Below are positions 22,420 through 35,749 of a stretch of DNA of 40,626 bases, piece after piece. Positions within the stretch are counted from its first letter, which is position 1; each line of letters opens with the position of its first letter. The DNA is from Pseudomonadota bacterium. GTDB taxonomy: Bacteria > Pseudomonadota > Gammaproteobacteria > Burkholderiales > Rhodocyclaceae. The notes under the pieces were generated by a model, which ran no database searches, was not told the DNA's origin, and saw nothing but the letters and a program-made list of their open reading frames with translations. The DNA is taken from the NCBI GenBank assembly GCA_018262095.1, contig JAGTRW010000036.1, forward strand, positions 1 through 40,626, in the 5' to 3' direction. The translations under genes and the position numbers were made by a program.

Positions 22420-23715
22420 TCAAGTGGCCTTGCGGTCCCACTCGACCGATTGCGCGGCCTGGCCGCCGGCGACCGAATAGAGCACCTTGGTATTGCGCGT
22501 CTTGAGAAAATCGTCGAGCGATTCGCCGCGCATCGCGGCATAGATGTGCAGGTTGGAGACGCCGACCGTCGCCCCCAGCTTTTCGAGCAGGAAGAAGATC
22601 ACGCCGTAATGGATCATCGCGCGCCAGTCGCGCCGGCGGATCAGATCCTTCTCCTGTTCGGACAGCCCGGCCACGGCGAAGGCGCTTTCGGGATCGTCGA
22701 GAAAGGCTTGGCGCTGCGCCGGGACGATCATTTGATGCAGGAACTTGTTGACGCGATAGGCCTTGACGCTCATCGCGTGCGTGAACGGATAGGTACCGGT
22801 GAGCTTTTCCGCGCCGCGCAGCTGCTCGGCCATGCGCTCGCGATGCCGCTCATTGACCGCGCCGGGCACCGGCAGCGACTCGTTCTCGAGAACCAGCGTG
22901 CCGATGTTGGCCATCGACGGCAGATACGACGAACTGTGGATCTTCCTGACGTTGGCCGACAAGGCGCCGCGCATGATCAGCCACATGATCACCTCGGCGC
23001 CTTCGAGGCCGCCGAGCGTTGCGTATTCGGCGTGCGTCATCTCGGCCAGGCGCGCCGGATCGCGCGCGATCAGTTCAAGGAATTGTTCATCCCACGCGGT
23101 GTTGTTGAAGCCCGCGCGTTCGCCATGGACCTGGTGCGACAGGCCGCCGGTGGCGACCACCGCGACGCGCAGGTCGGCCGGATAGCTTTCGATCGCGCAG
23201 CGCAGCGCCTGGCCGAGCTTGAAGCAACGCGCCGCGCTCGGAATCGGGAACTGCAGCACGCCGACCTGCAGCGGAACGATGGTCGTCGGCCACTCGTCGC
23301 CCTGCCTTTCGAGCAGCACCGACATCGGCGAGAAGAAACCGTGATCGAGCGGCTTGTCCTGGAAGAACGACATGTCGAACTCGTCGCTCATCAGGCTCAC
23401 GGCGATGTGCTGCGCGAGCTCCGGATTGCCCGGAACCGGCGGCAGCGCGCGCGCGCCGCCGCCCTCGTCGGCGACCGCATACTGCTCGCCGATGCCGAGC
23501 GCGAAGGTCGAGTAGTGGTCGAAGAAGAACGAGGTGACGTGGTCGTTGAAGATATAGACCAGCGCGTCGGGCCGGTTTTGCGCAAACCACTCGCGAACCG
23601 GCGCGAAGCTCCTGAAGATCGGCGCCCACGCCGGGTCGTCCTGCTTGTGGGTGTCGTAGGCGAAACCGATGGTCGGCGTATGCGAGACGGCGACCCCGCC
23701 AATGATCTTGGCCAT
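22420..23715 (-). CDS. galA: Gallate dioxygenase-like, LigB-LigA fusion
   Basis: A 431-residue type II extradiol dioxygenase. The N-terminal LigB-like domain (1-280) has the iron ligands His12, His59 and Glu241 and the catalytic His194 (GGLSHQVHGER). The C-terminal part (about 310-410) is LigA-like. This beta-then-alpha layout, length and sequence (MAKIIGG.AVSHTPTI, MRGALS) match GalA of Pseudomonas putida and DesB of Sphingobium, which cleave gallate to 4-oxalomesaconate. An AAGGAG site precedes the ATG. It is the last gene of the operon that begins with the livK gene. A related substrate such as protocatechuate or 3-O-methylgallate cannot be excluded. Confidence 0.88.
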   Translation of the reverse strand: MAKIIGGVAVSHTPTIGFAYDTHKQDDPAWAPIFRSFAPVREWFAQNRPDALVYIFNDHVTSFFFDHYSTFALGIGEQYAVADEGGGARALPPVPGNPELAQHIAVSLMSDEFDMSFFQDKPLDHGFFSPMSVLLERQGDEWPTTIVPLQVGVLQFPIPSAARCFKLGQALRCAIESYPADLRVAVVATGGLSHQVHGERAGFNNTAWDEQFLELIARDPARLAEMTHAEYATLGGLEGAEVIMWLIMRGALSANVRKIHSSSYLPSMANIGTLVLENESLPVPGAVNERHRERMAEQLRGAEKLTGTYPFTHAMSVKAYRVNKFLHQMIVPAQRQAFLDDPESAFAVAGLSEQEKDLIRRRDWRAMIHYGVIFFLLEKLGATVGVSNLHIYAAMRGESLDDFLKTRNTKVLYSVAGGQAAQSVEWDRKAT

Positions 23716-23753: not shown

Positions 23754-24320
23754 TCAGGCGCCCAGGCCGTAGGGCGCCGGCGTCATATTGACGATGCGCC
23801 GGAAGAGGGTCTCGTACTCGCCCTCGGCGCCGGAAAAGGGGTCGAAATTGGCCGAGAACTCAGTGTCGAGCGCCTGCCAGTCGGCCTCGGAGAGCGCTTC
23901 GCGCGCCAGCGGCAGCAATTCGCCCTCTTCGAGGTTGAGGTGCTGCCAGTTGAAATCGAGGTAGTGCTGGAGCAGCGCGTCGAACGCCGCGAAGCCGCTG
24001 GCCTCGAAGCTCTGGTAGTGGATCAGCGCCTGCAGCAGTTCGCCGGTCATGCGGGTGCCGTCGCGGTGCTGCGCTTCGAGCTGATCGATCAGCGCCGACG
24101 CCTTGGCCGAACGAGCGCGCAGCAGCGGGAAGAAATAGTCGTCTTCCTTGGGGTGATGGACCTTTTCCGGCACCTGCGTGATGTAATCGACCATCGCCGC
24201 GAGCAGACGGAAGTCGGGCTGCAGCTTGCCGCTGCGGATCTCGCCGACGACGAAGCGCAAGGCCTGCAGCACCGAGGCCAGCGCGCGGTGTTCGTCGTGA
24301 ATGATGTCGATCGTCTTCAT
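23754..24320 (-). CDS. Hemerythrin-like HHE-domain protein
   Basis: A 188-residue four-helix hemerythrin-like protein. Candidate di-iron ligands are spaced as in the family: His11 (HDEH), His55/His56-x2-Glu59, His85, His119 and His127 with Glu131. Such proteins bind oxygen or nitric oxide, store iron or protect from oxidative damage. A longer frame exists, but the ATG at 24320 has GGAAG 5 bases upstream. It lies between the importer ATPase gene and the gallate dioxygenase gene, 19 and 38 bases from them, so it is very likely in the same transcript. Supply of oxygen to the dioxygenases or protection of their Fe(II) would fit, but is inference. Confidence 0.82.
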   Translation of the reverse strand: MKTIDIIHDEHRALASVLQALRFVVGEIRSGKLQPDFRLLAAMVDYITQVPEKVHHPKEDDYFFPLLRARSAKASALIDQLEAQHRDGTRMTGELLQALIHYQSFEASGFAAFDALLQHYLDFNWQHLNLEEGELLPLAREALSEADWQALDTEFSANFDPFSGAEGEYETLFRRIVNMTPAPYGLGA

Positions 24321-24339: not shown

Positions 24340-25048
<709 letters not shown>

Positions 25049-25056
<8 letters not shown>

Positions 25057-25801
25057 CGAGCGCCTCTCCCAGATAGACTTCCTTGACGCGTTTGTCGCGA
25101 GCAATTTCGTCCGGCGTGTTTTCGGTCAGCAGCGCGCCATTGACCATCACCGAGATGCGGTCGGCGAAGCGGAAGACGAGGTCCATGTCGTGCTCGATGA
25201 GCAGGATGGTGACCTCGCGCGGCAACCGGGCGATGGTCTCGAAGAGTTCGCGGCTCTCGCTGGTCGGGACGCCGGCCGCCGGTTCGTCGAGCAGCAGCAC
25301 CTGCGGCTTGGCGGCCAGCGCCAGCGCGATCTCGATCAGCCGCTGCTTGCCGTAAGCGAGGTTGCGCGTCTGCTCGTTGGCGACGTCGGCCAGATGCAGG
25401 CTGGCGAGCAAGGCCGCCGCCTCATCGACCGCGTCGCGTTGCGCTGCCAGCGGCCGCCACCAATGGCCGCCCAGGCCCAGGCGCTCGCAGACGGCGAGGC
25501 TCACCGCTTCGAGCACGGTCATCTCGGCGAACAGGCAGTTGATCTGGAAGGTGCGCACCATGCCGCGCTTGACGCGCTGGTGCTGCGCCAGTTTGGTGAC
25601 GATCTCGCCCTTGAGCACGACTTCGCCCGAAGTCGGTTCGAGGAATCCGCTCAGCAGGTTGATCAGCGTCGTCTTGCCCGCGCCGTTGGGGCCGATCAGC
25701 GCGTGGCGCGCACCCCGCTCGATGTTGAGCGAGACGTCGTTGGTCGCGACGAAGCCGCCGAACTTCTTGACGAGATTACGCGTCTGCAGCACGGCGCTCA
25801 T
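25049..25801 (-). CDS. Branched-chain-type ABC importer, ATPase (LivG-like)
   Basis: A 250-residue ATPase of the LivG type. Walker A GPNGAGKTT lies near residues 37-45, and Walker B is LLLDEPAAGV. The signature is LAYGKQR in place of LSGGQ, which is normal for LivG. RTFQINCLFAEMTVLEAV is the Q-loop region. It overlaps the livM-like gene by 4 bases on one side and the livF-like gene by 8 bases on the other, so all are translated together. Confidence 0.9.
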
Positions 25802-26775
25802 GATTTGCCCGCCTTGATCATTTTCTGCGCCAGCCCCATGACGCCGTCGCGCGCGAACAGCACGACCAGCACCAGCACCGCGCCGAGCCAGAACTGCCAG
25901 TACTGCGGATTGAGGTCGGAGAGGTAATGGTGCGCGACCATGAAGACCATGGTGCCGATCAGCGCGCCGTAGAGGCGGCCGCTGCCGCCGAGCACCAGCA
26001 TCAGCATCAGCTCGGCCGAGCGCGGAAACGACAGCACGTCGAGCGAAACGAACTGGGTCGTCTGCGTCAGCAGCGCGCCGGCGATTCCGGCGTACGCCGC
26101 GCCGAGCGTATAGACCGCCGTCAGCCGGCCGTTGACCGGCGCGCCGATCGCCGGCATGCGCCTGACATTCTGCTTGATGCCGCGCAGCGACAGGCCGAAC
26201 GGGCTATTGACGACGCGCCGCGCCAGGCAGAACAGCACGAACAGCACGCCGATGCTGTACCAGTAGGCGGTCTTGCCGTAGAGATCGAAGCCGAACAGCC
26301 CGATGACCTGGTGCATCTCGACGCCCTGCAAGCCATCGACGCCGCCGGTGAATTCGGTGAGCTTGTTGGCCGCCTCGTAGAGCATCATCGCCACGCCGAG
26401 CGTCACCATCAGCCGCGTCAGGTCGCTGCCGCGCAGCACCAGAAAGCTGGTGATATAGCCGACGATCGCGGCGACCAGCGCGCCGACCGCGAGACCGAGC
26501 AACGGATCGCCGTAGCCGTACTTGGCCAGGAAACCGGCGGCGTAGGCGCCGAGGCCGAAGAAAGCGGCGTGGCCGAGCGAGACGATCCCCGCGTAGCCCA
26601 GGATCAGGTCGAGCGACAGCGCGAACAGCGCGGTGATCGCCATCTGTGAGAGCAGCGACAGGCTCTTGGGGAAAAGAAAGTAGGCGGCGATCGGCAGCAG
26701 CCAGAAGATGAGTTCGGGCGTTTTCCAGGCCGCGGCGCGGCGCAGCGGCGAAAGGTCGGGTGCGGTCGTTGACAT
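25798..26775 (-). CDS. Branched-chain-type ABC importer, permease (LivM-like)
   Basis: A 325-residue polytopic membrane protein with about nine or ten helices. The block GYAGIVSLGHAAFFGLGAYAAG is the LivM signature, and GGSGRLYGALIG is the conserved loop facing the ATPase. It pairs with the LivH-like permease to form the channel. Nine bases separate it from the LivH-like gene. Confidence 0.9.
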   Translation of the reverse strand: MSTTAPDLSPLRRAAAWKTPELIFWLLPIAAYFLFPKSLSLLSQMAITALFALSLDLILGYAGIVSLGHAAFFGLGAYAAGFLAKYGYGDPLLGLAVGALVAAIVGYITSFLVLRGSDLTRLMVTLGVAMMLYEAANKLTEFTGGVDGLQGVEMHQVIGLFGFDLYGKTAYWYSIGVLFVLFCLARRVVNSPFGLSLRGIKQNVRRMPAIGAPVNGRLTAVYTLGAAYAGIAGALLTQTTQFVSLDVLSFPRSAELMLMLVLGGSGRLYGALIGTMVFMVAHHYLSDLNPQYWQFWLGAVLVLVVLFARDGVMGLAQKMIKAGKS

Positions 26776-26784
26776 GGGTTCTCG

Positions 26785-27642
26785 CTATTTGGCCGCGCTG
26801 CGGCCGAAAAGTCCCTGCGGTCTCGCGATCAGCATTACCACCATCACGACGTAGATGACGAAGGCGCCGGCCTGCGGCAGGTAGTATTTGCCGGCCACGT
26901 CGAACAGGCCGAGCATCAGCGAGGCGATCAGCGAGCCCTTGATGTTGCCGCTGCCGCCGACGGCGACGACGATCAGGAAGGAGACGATGTACTTGAGCGG
27001 AAAACTCGGATCGAGGCCGAGCATCTCGATTCCCAGCGCGCCGCCCAGGCCGGCGAGCCCCGAACCCAGCGCGAAGGTCAGCGTGAAGATGCGTTCGACG
27101 TTGATGCCGAGGCCGCGTGCCGCGCGCGGATTGTCGACCGCCGCGCGCAACTGCGCGCCGAAGCGCGTGCTGCCGACCAGCCATTGCAGGCCGAGCGCCA
27201 GCGTGAGGCCAATGACGATCAGGAACAGGCGATAGACGCCGACGTCGAGCCCGGGCAGCTTGATCTGTCCGCGCAGGAAGTCGGGCAGCACGATCGCCTG
27301 CTGCTGCGCGCCGAAGAAATAGTGCGCCGCGCTGATCGCCATGAAATTGATGCCGATCGAGAACAGCACCTGGTCGAGGTGCGACGCGCCATAAAGTCGG
27401 CGGTAAAGCGTGCGTTCGAGAACGACGCCGGCCAGCGCCGCGACGATCGCGCCGGCCGGCGCCGCGAGCAGGAACGGGACGCCGGCGCGCGCCAGCAGCA
27501 GCGCGCAGACGTAACCGCCGAGCATGGCGAAAGCGCCGTGCGCGAGATTGACGAAGTTCATCAAACCCAGTGTCACCGACAGGCCGACGCTGATCAGAAA
27601 GAGCAGCATGCCCGCGGCCAGCCCATCGAAGATGATGGTCAT
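26785..27642 (-). CDS. Branched-chain-type ABC importer, permease (LivH-like)
   Basis: A 285-residue membrane protein of the LivH family, beginning MTIIFDGLAAGMLLFLISVG and containing GLMNFVNLAHGAFAMLGGYV, the hallmark segment. VGGSGNIKGSLIASLMLGL near the C terminus is the ATPase-coupling loop. GGGGGA precedes the ATG. A stable hairpin lies between this gene and the upstream binding-protein gene. Confidence 0.9.
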   Translation of the reverse strand: MTIIFDGLAAGMLLFLISVGLSVTLGLMNFVNLAHGAFAMLGGYVCALLLARAGVPFLLAAPAGAIVAALAGVVLERTLYRRLYGASHLDQVLFSIGINFMAISAAHYFFGAQQQAIVLPDFLRGQIKLPGLDVGVYRLFLIVIGLTLALGLQWLVGSTRFGAQLRAAVDNPRAARGLGINVERIFTLTFALGSGLAGLGGALGIEMLGLDPSFPLKYIVSFLIVVAVGGSGNIKGSLIASLMLGLFDVAGKYYLPQAGAFVIYVVMVVMLIARPQGLFGRSAAK

Positions 27643-27667
27643 CGATTCCCCCGCCTGTAGTTATCGC

Positions 27668-27695: not shown

Positions 27696-28862
27696 TCACT
27701 GCTTGCCCGGATCCTTGAACTCGGGAACCTGGTCGAACTCGACGTTCTGCAGCTTGTTGCCGACCTTCTCGACCTTGCGGATGTAGACCGTCTGCACGAT
27801 GTCGCGCGTCGCCGCGTCGATCGTCACCGGGCCGCGCGGACTCACCCATTTCATTCCCTTGACGGCCTCGATGAATTTGTCGGCGTCGGCGTTGCCGCCG
27901 GTCTTCTTGAGCGCCTCGGCGATCAGTCGCATGCCGTCATAGCCGCCGACGGCCATGAAGTTGGGTCGGTCCTTGGGATAGGCCTTGAGATAGGCGGCGG
28001 TGAAGGTCTCGTTTTCCGGCGACTTGTGCGCTTGCGAGTAGTGGAAGGAATTGATCACGCCGAGCGCCGGATCGCCGATGGCGTCGAGCACGTCCTCGTC
28101 GAGCAGGTCACCAGTGGCGATCAGCTTGATTCCGGCCTGCGCCAGCCCGCGCTCCTGGAAGCCCTTCATGAAGGCGATTCCCATTTCGCCGTTGGGGACG
28201 AAGAGGAAGACGGCGTCGGGCTTGGTATCCTTGACCTTCTGCAGATACGGTGCGAAATCGGGGTTGCCGACCGGCACGCGCACCTCGCCGACGATCTCGC
28301 CGCCGGCGGCGGTAAAGGTCTTCTTGAACTGGCCTTCGGCGTCGTGGCCGGGGCCGTAGTCGGCGACGATGGTGAATACCTTCTTGATGCCGTTCTTGGC
28401 CGCCCAGCTGGCGATCGGCGCGGTGACCTGCGGCAGCGTCATCGATGTGCGAACGATGTAATTCGACTTGGTCGTGATCGCAGACGTCGCGGCGTTCATC
28501 ACCACCATCGGCTTCTTGGCTTCGGTCGCCACCGGCGCGACGGCAAAGGCTTCGGGCGTCAGGCTGAAGCCGGCGAGGATATCGACGTTGTCCTGAATCA
28601 CCAGTTCCTGCGCGCGGCGCTTGCTGGCGTCGCCCGCGGTACCCGGCGAGTCGTCCTTGACGATCAGCTGCACCTTGCGTCCGGCGATGGTATCGCCGTT
28701 CTGCGCCAGGTAGAGCTTGACGCCGTTCATGATCTGCTTGCCGTGCGAGGCGAACGGGCCGGTCATCGGCACGATCACGCCGATCTTGAGGTCGGCCGCC
28801 TGCGCGGCGACCGACGCGAGCAGCGCGAATGCTGCCGCGGCGACTTTCATCTTGAGTTGCAT
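27696..28862 (-). CDS. Periplasmic substrate-binding protein (LivK-like)
   Basis: A 388-residue type I periplasmic binding protein. A signal peptide (KMKVAAAAFALLASVAAQA) precedes the mature start ADLKIGVIVPMTGPFASHG. The ATG at 28862 has GAGGAG 9 bases upstream; the open frame extends further but without support. It would deliver its ligand to the HM permease. Related proteins in soil bacteria bind benzoates, coumarates and other aromatic acids. The operon contains a gallate dioxygenase, so gallate, protocatechuate or 4-hydroxybenzoate are reasonable candidates. First gene of a six- or seven-gene leftward operon. Confidence 0.9.
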   Translation of the reverse strand: MQLKMKVAAAAFALLASVAAQAADLKIGVIVPMTGPFASHGKQIMNGVKLYLAQNGDTIAGRKVQLIVKDDSPGTAGDASKRRAQELVIQDNVDILAGFSLTPEAFAVAPVATEAKKPMVVMNAATSAITTKSNYIVRTSMTLPQVTAPIASWAAKNGIKKVFTIVADYGPGHDAEGQFKKTFTAAGGEIVGEVRVPVGNPDFAPYLQKVKDTKPDAVFLFVPNGEMGIAFMKGFQERGLAQAGIKLIATGDLLDEDVLDAIGDPALGVINSFHYSQAHKSPENETFTAAYLKAYPKDRPNFMAVGGYDGMRLIAEALKKTGGNADADKFIEAVKGMKWVSPRGPVTIDAATRDIVQTVYIRKVEKVGNKLQNVEFDQVPEFKDPGKQ

Positions 28863-28976
28863 ATCTCTTGTCTCCTCATGTTTTATGCCTGAGGCCTCAC
28901 AGGGCACCGGGTCTGGGCTATGATCGAAAGGGGCCGACGAAAGGCAATCAGCCACGATCAATCGCGCTTGACGAGG

Positions 28977-29032
28977 ATAATGCAGCGCATCGCACCGGGC
29001 GACAATCCAGCTTCGCTACTAGTAGCTATCGC
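28977..29032 (-). promoter_or_regulatory. Promoter of the importer/gallate operon with activator site
   Basis: On the minus strand: GCGATAGCTA (from 29032), then 27 bp after its first base a -35 TTGTCG (29005-29000), a 17-bp spacer and a -10 CATTAT (28982-28977). The transcript would start near 28970, about 108 bases before the livK-like ATG. The 10-mer, its spacing and the 17-bp spacer recur exactly before the ligAB operon, which supports an activator site shared by the LysR-type regulator encoded between them. Confidence 0.7.
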
Positions 29033-29045
29033 TTTCTGTTATAAC
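29015..29045 (+). promoter_or_regulatory. Regulator promoter overlapped by a 12-bp palindrome
   Basis: GCTACTAGTAGC (29015-29026) is a perfect palindrome. A -10 TATAAC (29040-29045, five of six consensus) for the LysR-type gene lies 17 bp after the position where a -35 would fall (29017-29022), inside that palindrome. Binding there would block the regulator's own promoter while activating the divergent operon, the usual LysR arrangement. Confidence 0.55.
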
Positions 29046-29078
29046 CCAAAATGAATAGCCATTCCGGAGGGCGGGTCG

Positions 29079-29996
29079 ATGAACCTCAAGCAGCTGGAAT
29101 ATTTCGTTCGTGTCGCCGAGCTCGGCAGTTTCAGCAAGGCCGCGCTGATCCTCAACATCGCCCAGCCGGCGCTATCGAAGCAGGTGCGTCTGCTCGAGAC
29201 CGCCCTGCGCGTCACCTTACTGACGCGCAATGGCCGCGGCGTCGTGCTGACCGATTCGGGGCAGCGCTTGTTCGACCATAGCGTCGGCATTTTGCAGCTG
29301 GTCGCGCATGCCACCGAGGAGATGGAGGCCGCACGCGATGTTCCGTCCGGGCGCATCGTCATCGGCTTGCCGCCGAGCATGGGGCGACGCTTGACCTTGC
29401 CGCTCGTCGAAAATTTTCGCCGCACGCTGCCCAAGGCACGGTTGGCGATCGTCGAAGGACTGTCGACGCACCTCACCGAATGGATCGCCACCGGTCGTGT
29501 CGACCTCGGCCTGGTGCTCAACCCCGAGCCCAACCCGGCGATCGAAGTGACTCCGGTGCATGAAGAACCGCTCGGCCTGGTCGGCCCGGTGCCTGGCAAG
29601 AAAGACAAGGTGGCTGTCGTGCCTTTGGCCGAGCTGGTCAACTACCCGCTGATTCTTCCCGAGCGCAGTCATGCCTTGCGCAAGCTGCTCGAGACCCAGG
29701 CCGCGCTGTCCGGGCTCAAGCTCAACGTCGTCCTTGAGGTGTCCAGCGTCCAGTCGATTCTCGATCTGGTCGCCGCCGGTCACGGTTACGCGGTGTTGTC
29801 GCAGACGGCGCTGACCGCGTCGGGTCGGCCGCAGGAATTTACGCTGCGCCCGCTCGCCAAACCCGGTCTGACCAGCACTTTCTTCATTGCCGTGTCGGCG
29901 CACAAGCCGATGACGCCGCTCGGCCGCCAGGCGTTCCGCTTGTTGCAGGAACTGGTCGTTTCGACCGGCGCTCCCATAGCCAAACGCGATAGCTAG
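29079..29996 (+). CDS. LysR-type transcriptional regulator
   Basis: A 305-residue LysR-type protein. The winged helix-turn-helix (1-60) reads MNLKQLEYFVRVAELGSFSKAA, then AQPALSKQVRLLE, the recognition helix. The effector domain begins near residue 90 (GRIVIGLPPSMGRRL) and would bind an aromatic acid or pathway intermediate. GGAGGG lies 7 bases before the ATG. It is divergent from the importer operon and followed at 30137 by the ligAB operon. Its last bases overlap the GCGATAGCTA motif of the downstream promoter. It is the obvious candidate controller for both sides; the effector is unknown. Confidence 0.93.
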   Translation: MNLKQLEYFVRVAELGSFSKAALILNIAQPALSKQVRLLETALRVTLLTRNGRGVVLTDSGQRLFDHSVGILQLVAHATEEMEAARDVPSGRIVIGLPPSMGRRLTLPLVENFRRTLPKARLAIVEGLSTHLTEWIATGRVDLGLVLNPEPNPAIEVTPVHEEPLGLVGPVPGKKDKVAVVPLAELVNYPLILPERSHALRKLLETQAALSGLKLNVVLEVSSVQSILDLVAAGHGYAVLSQTALTASGRPQEFTLRPLAKPGLTSTFFIAVSAHKPMTPLGRQAFRLLQELVVSTGAPIAKRDS

Positions 29997-30041
29997 TAGT
30001 GCGCGCGGTGGCTTGGTCAGCACCTGATGTGTCGTCACAAT
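29986..30041 (+). promoter_or_regulatory. Promoter of the ligAB-pobA operon with activator site
   Basis: GCGATAGCTA (29986-29995) is followed, 27 bp from its first base, by -35 TTGGTC (30013-30018), a 17-bp spacer and -10 CACAAT (30036-30041). The elements are weak, as expected of an activator-dependent promoter. The motif overlaps the stop codon of the regulator gene. Geometry is identical to that of the importer operon promoter. Confidence 0.7.
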
Positions 30042-30121
30042 GGCAGCGCTCTTCAACCAGGACGTCACGATGCCAGGCTCGACCCCTTGCCACTTCGTGC
30101 GTATCCGTACTGGCCCGATGA

Positions 30122-32342
<2,221 letters not shown>

Positions 32343-32346
<4 letters not shown>

Positions 32347-33368
32347 GCCTGCCGCGCCGCCGCATCGGTCAATTGAGCGTCTCGGCGATCGGCCTGGGCG
32401 CGATGAACCTGAGCCACCTCTACGGCGCGCCGCCGCCGGTCGAGGTCGCCGAGTCGGTGCTGGGGCGCGCGCTCGACCTTGGCGTCGATTTCTTCGATAC
32501 CGCCGCGCTCTACGGCTTCGGCGCCAACGAAACGCTGGTCGGCCGCGTGCTCAAGCCGCACCGCTCGAGGATCGTGCTGGCCAGCAAGTGCGGCATTACC
32601 GGAATCGACGGCAAACGCGTCGTCGACGGCCGGCCGGCAACGCTCAAGCGCACCTGCGACGAGGCCTTGCGGCGATTGCAGACCGACGTCATCGACCTCT
32701 ATTATCTGCACCGCCTCGATCGCCAGGTTCCGGTCGAGGACAGCGTCGGCGCGCTCGCCGATCTGGTGCGCGCCGGCAAGATCCGCAGCATCGGCCTGTC
32801 CGAAGTCTCGGCGGCGACGCTGCGGCGCGCGCACGCGGTGCATCCGGTCGCCGCGGTGCAGAACGAATACTCGCTGTGGACGCGCGAAGCCGAAATCGGC
32901 GTTCTTAACGCCTGTCGCGAACTTAACGTCGCGCTCGTTGCCTTCAGCCCGCTGGCGCGCGCCTTCCTGACCGGAACGCTGCGCGACCCGCAGCGCGAGC
33001 TCGAGCAGGGCGACATCCGCCTCGACATGCCGCGCTTCTCGGCGCAGAACTATCCGAAAAACCTCGAACTGCTCAAGCCCTACGCGGCAATCGCCGACGC
33101 GGTCGGCTGCAGCATGGCGCAGCTCGCGCTCGCCTGGCTGCTGGCCAAGGACGATTTCATCGTGCCGATCACTGGAACCAAGAATCCGCGCCACCTCGAG
33201 GAGAACGTCAGCGCCGCGTCAGTGGCGCTCGACGCGGCGACGGTCGCGCGGCTCGATCGCCTGATCAACCAGCACACCGTCGTCGGCGCACGCTACAACG
33301 CGGCGACGCAGCGCGACATCGACACCGAAATGTTTGCCGAGAGTCCGCTACGCGAGGAGAGCGCATGA
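32343..33368 (+). CDS. Aldo/keto reductase of unknown substrate
   Basis: A 341-residue aldo/keto reductase (TIM barrel, NADPH-dependent). The catalytic tetrad is visible: Asp52, Tyr57, Lys82 and His123. IGLGAMNLSHLYG near the start and PITGTKNPRHLEENV near the C terminus (cofactor-binding) fit the YakC/AKR13-like branch. It overlaps ligC and the next gene by 4 bases each (ATGA), so it is built into the operon. It may act on an aldehyde or keto intermediate of aromatic breakdown, but none of the standard protocatechuate 4,5-cleavage steps needs it. Confidence 0.88.
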
Positions 33369-33718
33369 AAACCTCCCGAGCGAAACATCAAATCGCCGGA
33401 ACCACGGTGTTCGACGGCGAACAGGCGCGCAAGGGCTACGCGCTTAACAAGATGTGCTTTTCGTTCAACTCGGCGCAAAACCGCGCCGAATTTCTGCAGG
33501 ACGAGCCGGCCTACTGCGACAAATACTCGCTCAACGACGAGCAGCGCGCCGCGATCGCCAGCCGCGACGTGCTGCGCTTGCTGGCGGCCGGCGGCAACAT
33601 CTATTACCTCGCCAAATTCGCCGGAATCTTCGGACTCGACATGCAGGAGATCGGCGCACAGCAGAGCGGAATCAGCAAGGACGCGTTCAAGGCCGCGCTG
33701 ATCGAGGCCGGCAAATAA
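33365..33718 (+). CDS. LigA-type dioxygenase small subunit (second copy)
   Basis: A 117-residue LigA-like protein, helical, without metal ligands. It aligns with residues 6-122 of the fused enzyme (GTTVFDGEQARKGYALNKMC; GGNIYYLAKF) but is clearly diverged. Met93 stands where the fused enzyme has Phe93 and Sphingobium LigA has Phe103, a residue at the substrate entrance. It overlaps the reductase gene by 4 bases and precedes the LigB-like gene by 2 bases, so the two make one enzyme. Substrate unassigned. Confidence 0.87.
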   Translation: MKTSRAKHQIAGTTVFDGEQARKGYALNKMCFSFNSAQNRAEFLQDEPAYCDKYSLNDEQRAAIASRDVLRLLAAGGNIYYLAKFAGIFGLDMQEIGAQQSGISKDAFKAALIEAGK

Positions 33719-33720
33719 TC

Positions 33721-35749
<2,029 letters not shown>

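Follow-up and report, generated by a model that had tools for sequence, protein, structure and literature searches.

The stretch of DNA analysed here (the window) comprises positions 1 to 40,626 of contig JAGTRW010000036.1 in assembly GCA_018262095.1, a genome totalling 4,796,982 bases (4.80 Mb). It carries on the plus strand the gene of a 305-aa regulator, termed LysR1 (29079–29996), which was assigned to the LysR type by its HTH_1 and LysR_substrate domains (PF00126 at 76.8 bits against a cutoff of 26.6, and PF03466 at 132.4 bits against a cutoff of 28). None of the best 25 of 54 NCBIfam families reached its cutoff with LysR1, and the comparison with solved structures returned distant LysR-type regulators only. 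To the left, on the minus strand, lies an ABC importer made up of a periplasmic binding protein (27696–28862, Peripla_BP_6), two permeases (26785–27642, of the urea/branched-chain type with scores below the cutoffs, and 25798–26775) and two ATPases (25049–25801 and 24340–25056); the second permease and both ATPases were named from sequence and position, with synteny. A hemerythrin-domain protein (23754–24320, minus strand, PF01814) stands between the importer and a gallate dioxygenase (22420–23715, minus strand; PRK13367 at 764.6 bits, cutoff 412), which is the last gene of the run. Copies of the hemerythrin-domain protein with 78–79% identity adjoin the importer in two relatives, L080 and L043, and genes of this kind were noted in benzoate clusters, where their role is called unclear (PMC6449761).

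To the right, on the plus strand, a fused LigA-LigB dioxygenase of the protocatechuate 4,5-dioxygenase type (30137–31387; PRK13366 at 551.6 bits, above its cutoff of 317, and PRK13372 at 766.8, below its cutoff of 837) is followed by a GFO/IDH/MocA oxidoreductase (31384–32346), called LigC-like from synteny and position, and by an aldo/keto reductase recognised by a domain match (32343–33368). Next come a second LigA subunit (33365–33718; PRK13378 at 191.6, cutoff 161), a second LigB subunit (33721–34560, PF02900) and the 4-hydroxybenzoate 3-monooxygenase gene pobA (34574–35749; TIGR02360 at 671.3, cutoff 538.7). The regulator gene is thus placed beside protocatechuate 4,5-cleavage genes, as it is in a LigR-type regulon. 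Two LigA/LigB sets, one fused and one of separate subunits, are present in the single run 30137–34560; with the gallate dioxygenase on the other side counted in, one predicted regulator would govern three class III dioxygenases.

The two outward promoters were found to share the 10-mer GCGATAGCTA, which is exact at 29032–29023 on the minus strand (copy A) and at 29986–29995 on the plus strand (copy B) and has the same orientation relative to transcription at both places, as the initial annotation had claimed. The promoter geometry that it had described was also borne out: in both promoters the TTG of the −35 element begins 27 bases past the first G, TGG stands one base ahead of this TTG, and a 17-base spacer leads to the −10 element. 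In promoter A the elements are TTGTCG (29005–29000, minus strand) and CATTAT (28982–28977, minus strand) with a predicted start near 28970; both spacings, and the −10 element itself, recur at the ABC-importer promoter of L080. In promoter B they are TTGGTC (30013–30018, plus strand) and CACAAT (30036–30041, plus strand), and the predicted start is near 30048. Neither promoter passed a plain sigma-70 consensus scan; such weak scores fit activator-dependent promoters, of which they are no proof.

As a shared motif the 10-mer proved to be exact and at the same time only a portion of the site, amounting to the core (right half) of a LysR-type operator of about 30 bp. The consensus of this operator, CCATAACAAAACGCGATAGCTAGTAGTG, is composed of a T-N11-A box, ATAAC-N5-GCGAT, joined to AGCTAnTAG. 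Operator A (TTATAACAGAAAGCGATAGCTACTAGTAGC; 29015–29044, minus strand) belongs to the divergent importer/gallate promoter and spans about −74 to −45 relative to the predicted start, and operator B (CCATAGCCAAACGCGATAGCTAGTAGTGCG; 29974–30003, plus strand) lies within the 3′ end of the gene for LysR1. The description of two sites that flank the LysR-type gene, one of them overlapping its stop codon, was therefore accurate, since operator B spans the TAG at 29994–29996. On a matrix that excluded the window operator A scored 32.5 bits and operator B 42.3 bits, and profile R1, which was built from the sites of 27 relatives with the window excluded, gave E-values of 0.02 and 1.5e-4, respectively. 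Each predicted operator lies upstream of an outward operon, again as in a LigR-type regulon.

Coincidence had been called unlikely in the initial annotation, and the counts agree with this. When the two 102-bp stretches were dinucleotide-shuffled, none of 20,000 pairs reached an in-register run of 10, the longest shared run being 9, in a test devised once the run had already been spotted. The 4,796,982 bases hold three exact copies of the 10-mer and 20 of the reversed pattern; the third exact copy (C4:21229) falls inside an open frame and was rejected as a promoter site. Within the window the extended pattern ATAACNNNNNGCGATAGCTANTAG, with up to three mismatches, was found at operators A and B only (0.00 expected). 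In the whole-genome scan these two ranked first (0 and 1 mismatch) and a single extra match appeared (C49:72992, three mismatches), against four matches for the reversed pattern. A shorter and looser pattern was uninformative, giving 94 matches against 949 for its reverse. A one-mismatch copy of the 10-mer at 27667–27658 was also discarded, being within chance expectation and without an operator score. When profile R1 was run against its own genome at E≤10, with 150 of the 701 first-look candidates scored, both window sites and nothing else were returned, so that the proposed search for a third genomic site yielded none that was convincing by this profile or by the whole-genome pattern.

Conservation beside orthologous operons had been set beforehand as the test on which the proposal could fail, and it was examined around relatives of the regulator gene. 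These were drawn from 199 family genomes (17 at ≥59% identity) and from the contigs of named genomes (best 80, with 43 at ≥55%). The loci L082, L086 and L103 share identical regulator genes with L036, L043 and L047 and were dropped for this reason, which left 57 relatives plus the window. L051 and L052, with less than 50% identity, stand outside this count and have no operator of the window type adjoining the regulator gene; loci L075–L078 were not in the analysed set, and 37 loci at 43–51% identity were handled separately. With a leave-one-locus-out matrix, a test that is softened by close relatives, a downstream operator of at least 20 bits was obtained in 34 of the 57 relatives and an upstream operator in 15; among the 28 relatives at ≥65% identity the counts were 24 and 15. 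Both strands were scanned, and all downstream matches of at least 20 bits point away from the gene while all upstream ones are divergent. Motif, orientation and promoter spacing are thus all kept. A downstream match at this threshold is missing from 23 of the 57 relatives, 17 of which are below 62% identity, and several of these relatives show by eye a diverged box, ATGCC-N5-GGCAT. An upstream match is missing from 42 of the 57, and L043 has kept the regulator together with operator A and is without operator B.

The columns of the promoters themselves were counted over 34 downstream promoters, that of the window among them, after one of 35 had been removed by thinning. The −35 element CTTGG at columns +26 to +30 is well conserved (T in 29/34 at +27 and in 22/34 at +28, G in 29/34 at +29 and in 31/34 at +30), and so is the −10 element cAgAAT at +50 to +55 (C in 24/34 at +50, A in 29/34 at +51 and again at +53, A in 33/34 at +54, T in 29/34 at +55). 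The columns from +56 to +97 carry no more than 0.0–0.8 bits each. Because the −35 and −10 elements are conserved at the claimed offsets and the sequence beyond them hardly is, the calls of promoter B appear to be right, and this is the strongest evidence for them. The calls of promoter A are less broadly supported: the two elements are less pronounced in the 16 upstream sites, and the best counterpart is the ABC-importer promoter of L080 mentioned above. A shared 10-mer that is mere coincidence, or the trace of a recent promoter duplication with no function, could draw on the fact that operators A and B agree at only 20 of 30 letters; the shuffles and the persistence of the sites beside relatives whose flanks are hardly conserved leave this explanation with a practically nil probability, and chance was rejected on the pattern scans of the window and of the whole genome as well. 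We consider the paired operators around LysR1 to be real, conserved and, judging from these comparisons, probably functional in the manner that had been proposed.

Over 775,358 bp of regulator loci, 58 matches of at least 18 bits were obtained, namely 35 downstream and 16 upstream of the regulator (window included) and 7 elsewhere, and 100 column-permuted matrices run over the same loci gave no match at this level (top score 17.0). Two of the seven precede the binding proteins of ABC importers (L037, L038), and one, in L085, precedes a ModA-like operon 1.9 kb past the regulator gene. Another, at L045:3172–3201 on the plus strand, lies about 6.4 kb from the regulator and before a frame that by eye resembles a Rieske-type aromatic ring-hydroxylating oxygenase. 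The remaining three belong to IorA-like genes (L034:17885–17914 and L035:17424–17453, both on the minus strand, and L081:714–743 on the plus strand), and it is possible that this gene is an extra regulon member in these three relatives. Its product is a protein of about 700 aa, similar to the alpha subunit of indolepyruvate ferredoxin oxidoreductase and below the family cutoff. To the left of the regulator, the 15 relatives with operator A have a TRAP importer in eight cases, an ABC importer in two, and in five neither among the query proteins used. It is less ordinary that one operator type accompanies two unrelated kinds of importer (TRAP and ABC), besides the IorA-like and Rieske-looking genes of some relatives. 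For the clade of regulators found beside gallate/protocatechuate 4,5-cleavage genes in Rhodocyclales-type bacteria, this supplies a sharply defined operator that can be used for target prediction.

The position of operator B at the end of a coding sequence raises the question of what has been conserved. Overlap with the regulator's stop codon was found in 34 of the 35 downstream operators, as would be seen if site B were kept as coding sequence for the protein end of the regulator with no binder at all. Across species, however, three different frames run through this DNA: 25 of the 34 end in -HNKTR* or similar, 7, including the window, are of the -ITKRDS* type, and 2 use the third frame, with ends such as -HQP*. 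It is therefore the DNA that is conserved and not the peptide, and C-terminal protein conservation was rejected as the cause. Moreover, the upstream copies encode no protein end and the copy in L085 is well beyond the gene, so that we give the purely coding explanation hardly any credence. That an operator takes in the stop codon of its own regulator gene, with three frames used by different species, is again less ordinary, and it is a clear example of such a built-in site. One could go further and suppose that operator B has been retained in the last codons and stop as a working feedback switch, whereby the bound regulator would activate the downstream operon and at the same time roadblock or end its own mRNA, the three frames having been kept as lineages diverged. 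The end of the coding sequence would then double as the feedback switch of the regulator gene; we regard this as quite improbable.

Gene order in the relatives was compared with that of the window. A ligJ homologue lies 3′ of the regulator on the same strand in 50 of the 57 relatives, in most cases after a ModA-like gene or after galD; ligK and ligI, named partly by synteny, then follow wherever the contig is long enough. The ModA-like protein (SBP_bac_11; L039:10072–10758), which by eye has no obvious signal peptide, is the product of the gene that opens the 4,5-cleavage operon in many relatives. The closest architecture to that of the window was found in L080, a Propionivibrio record, where an ABC importer lies to the left and galD-ligJ-ligK-ligI-ligAB to the right. 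The window has no galD, ligJ, ligK or ligI between the regulator and ligAB, so that ligAB is the first gene under operator B. Of the 58 loci, the window alone showed an importer run that ends in a gallate dioxygenase, the contig of L080 stopping before that place. Between promoter B and ligAB, a weak candidate for a remnant of a galD start (30070–30110, plus strand) came from an in-register alignment with the galD start of L080, with a score of 35 against a shuffle mean of 21.1 (sd 3.3), a score that the best of 200 shuffles also reached. When 12 galD-bearing loci were compared, one (L095) beat all 200 shuffles, L080 tied and ten failed; a galD scar at this place is offered as a suggestion.

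Regulators of this arrangement are known from lignin-degrading bacteria. LigR of Novosphingobium aromaticivorans has two sites that flank its gene; it protects some 30 bp between roughly −50 and −85 and activates the operons on both sides, and its box TT-N-GC-N6-TTAT overlaps a T-N11-A motif (PMC12710314). The window resembles the LigR systems of N. aromaticivorans DSM 12444 and Sphingobium (S. lignivorans) SYK-6 in having a LysR-type activator candidate, two flanking sites and a pair of operons that serve the 4,5-cleavage of protocatechuate and gallate. On the opposite strand, site A is AT-C-GC-N6-TTAT and site B is AT-C-GC-N6-CTAT, one and two letters away from the LigR box as given there, which begins with TT where the window box has AT; the operators are predicted at −74 to −45, a range that partly coincides with the LigR footprints at −51 to −85 (PMC12710314). 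Unlike the LigR systems, the window has a site within the regulator's stop codon, an operon of ABC importer and gallate dioxygenase genes, and its lower-pathway genes elsewhere. LysR1 probably works like LigR, judging by the arrangement of sites and genes. GalR of Pseudomonas putida KT2440, an activator that is also of the LysR type, acts on two gallate promoters, has a predicted T-N11-A site and responds to 4-oxalomesaconate as its effector (PMC9942251). Set beside the window by this description, it shares the regulator type, the two promoters and the T-N11-A site. The GalR site itself, by the same description, resembles CTATA-N9-TATAG with an AACGCAT repeat, unlike the operator of the window, and the GalR system has an MFS importer with a porin and a divergent galB where the window has an ABC importer. 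On the sequence evidence, the pair in the window is a further case of the LigR/GalR-like kind, and the type of arrangement was already known. No description of the operator was found in the literature searched, so far as its text was accessible; subscription papers were outside this scope, so that its unpublished status is unproven. A comparative study of betaproteobacterial aromatic regulons mentions neither LigR nor GalR in the text searched (PMC6449761).

It is very probable, in our estimate, that LysR1 binds both flanking operators and activates both operons, although its roles as binder and as activator are both inferred. LysR1 (29079–29996) would bind the two operators on either side of its own gene. 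The centre of each lies some 60 bp ahead of a predicted start, and a position near −60 is the usual one for LysR activators. With an aromatic or ring-cleavage effector bound, for which protocatechuate, gallate and 4-oxalomesaconate are the candidates, it would activate both promoters. The leftward one would then express the ABC importer, the hemerythrin-domain protein and the gallate dioxygenase, and the rightward one ligAB, the LigC-like dehydrogenase, the aldo/keto reductase, the second LigA/LigB pair and pobA. Operator A may also serve to repress the promoter of LysR1 itself. In many relatives operator B heads a fuller 4,5-cleavage operon.

The profile was also run over larger sets of genomes, where its model E-values are rough. 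In the 199 family genomes it gave 33 matches at E≤0.01 in 20 genomes. These comprise all 18 genomes whose regulator orthologue is at least 59% identical, and two from the remaining 181; 17 of the 18 had supplied training sites, and their matches are by construction. No match at E≤0.01 was obtained in 179 of the 181 family genomes that have no close regulator orthologue. A scan of 398 phylum-wide genomes returned the window and four weak partial matches, which is about the chance rate at E≤0.01. The stricter filters of both scans lose weak matches, and operator A is unlisted there at E≤0.01. On plasmids, no relative at ≥60% identity was present. One genome of the family, G069, has a further match about 12 kb from its regulator and before a TRAP importer gene. 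In G078 the match precedes an orthologue of the window's importer binding protein, and in G142 it lies between a regulator of 44% identity and galD. The presence of the operator in G078 with no close LysR1 orthologue would suit a transcription factor other than the flanked LysR-type protein as the user of both operators. Against this stand the T-N11-A box of LysR type, the position near −60, the flanking of a LysR-type gene, the co-occurrence of site and regulator, and the LigR precedent; such a factor is very unlikely, and LysR1 is preferred.

The genome's own homologues of galD, ligJ, ligK and ligI were located in a row on another contig, C62, beside a paralogous regulator, LysR2; the identities to L039 are 84% for ligJ, 76% for ligK and 84% for ligI. 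LysR2 is about 46% identical to LysR1 and up to 72% identical to members of a second clade, represented by the 37 loci handled separately. The segment of C62 concerned (genome G000, L074:8226–14176) carries LysR2, the divergent galD-ligJ-ligK-ligI and a second ligI-like gene, and the intergenic box contains two GATAGC-type half sites. An upstream box that shares the right half of the operator was found in 28 of the 37 second-clade loci by a pattern search, with the pattern chosen after looking.

LysR2 could, then, act at operators A and B in addition to LysR1 or in its place, within a shared network that would link the upper and lower pathways. The boxes near both types of regulator do have the right half ATAGCTnnTAG in common (by eye, with a pattern chosen after looking), and a window-type operator precedes the orthologous ABC importer in G078, where the sole regulator match at E≤1e-30 is 46% identical; the site in G142, with its 44% regulator, points the same way. 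The C62 site, in contrast, scores 7.3 bits on the window-type matrix and is absent from the R1 matches at E≤10, and within the family sample the operator tracks close orthologues of LysR1. We regard a part for LysR2 at these operators as possible but unlikely, and LysR1 remains the preferred regulator of both. The initial annotation had placed import, gallate cleavage and protocatechuate cleavage under one regulator. The operator pair, its orientation and its spacing are conserved in support of that idea; it is to be amended in that a single regulator does not visibly cover the whole pathway here, as homologues of galD, ligJ, ligK and ligI are beside LysR2 on C62 with a related but different box. 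As the third less ordinary trait, the catabolic pathway appears to be divided between the loci of two paralogous regulators.

A LysR-type neighbour of a protocatechuate 4,5-cleavage operon is known in Comamonas, namely PmdR beside the pmd operon. Among the literature matches listed there was no occurrence of pmdR. PmdR may correspond to the second clade, with its 37 loci at 43–51% identity and a related upstream box in 28 of them.
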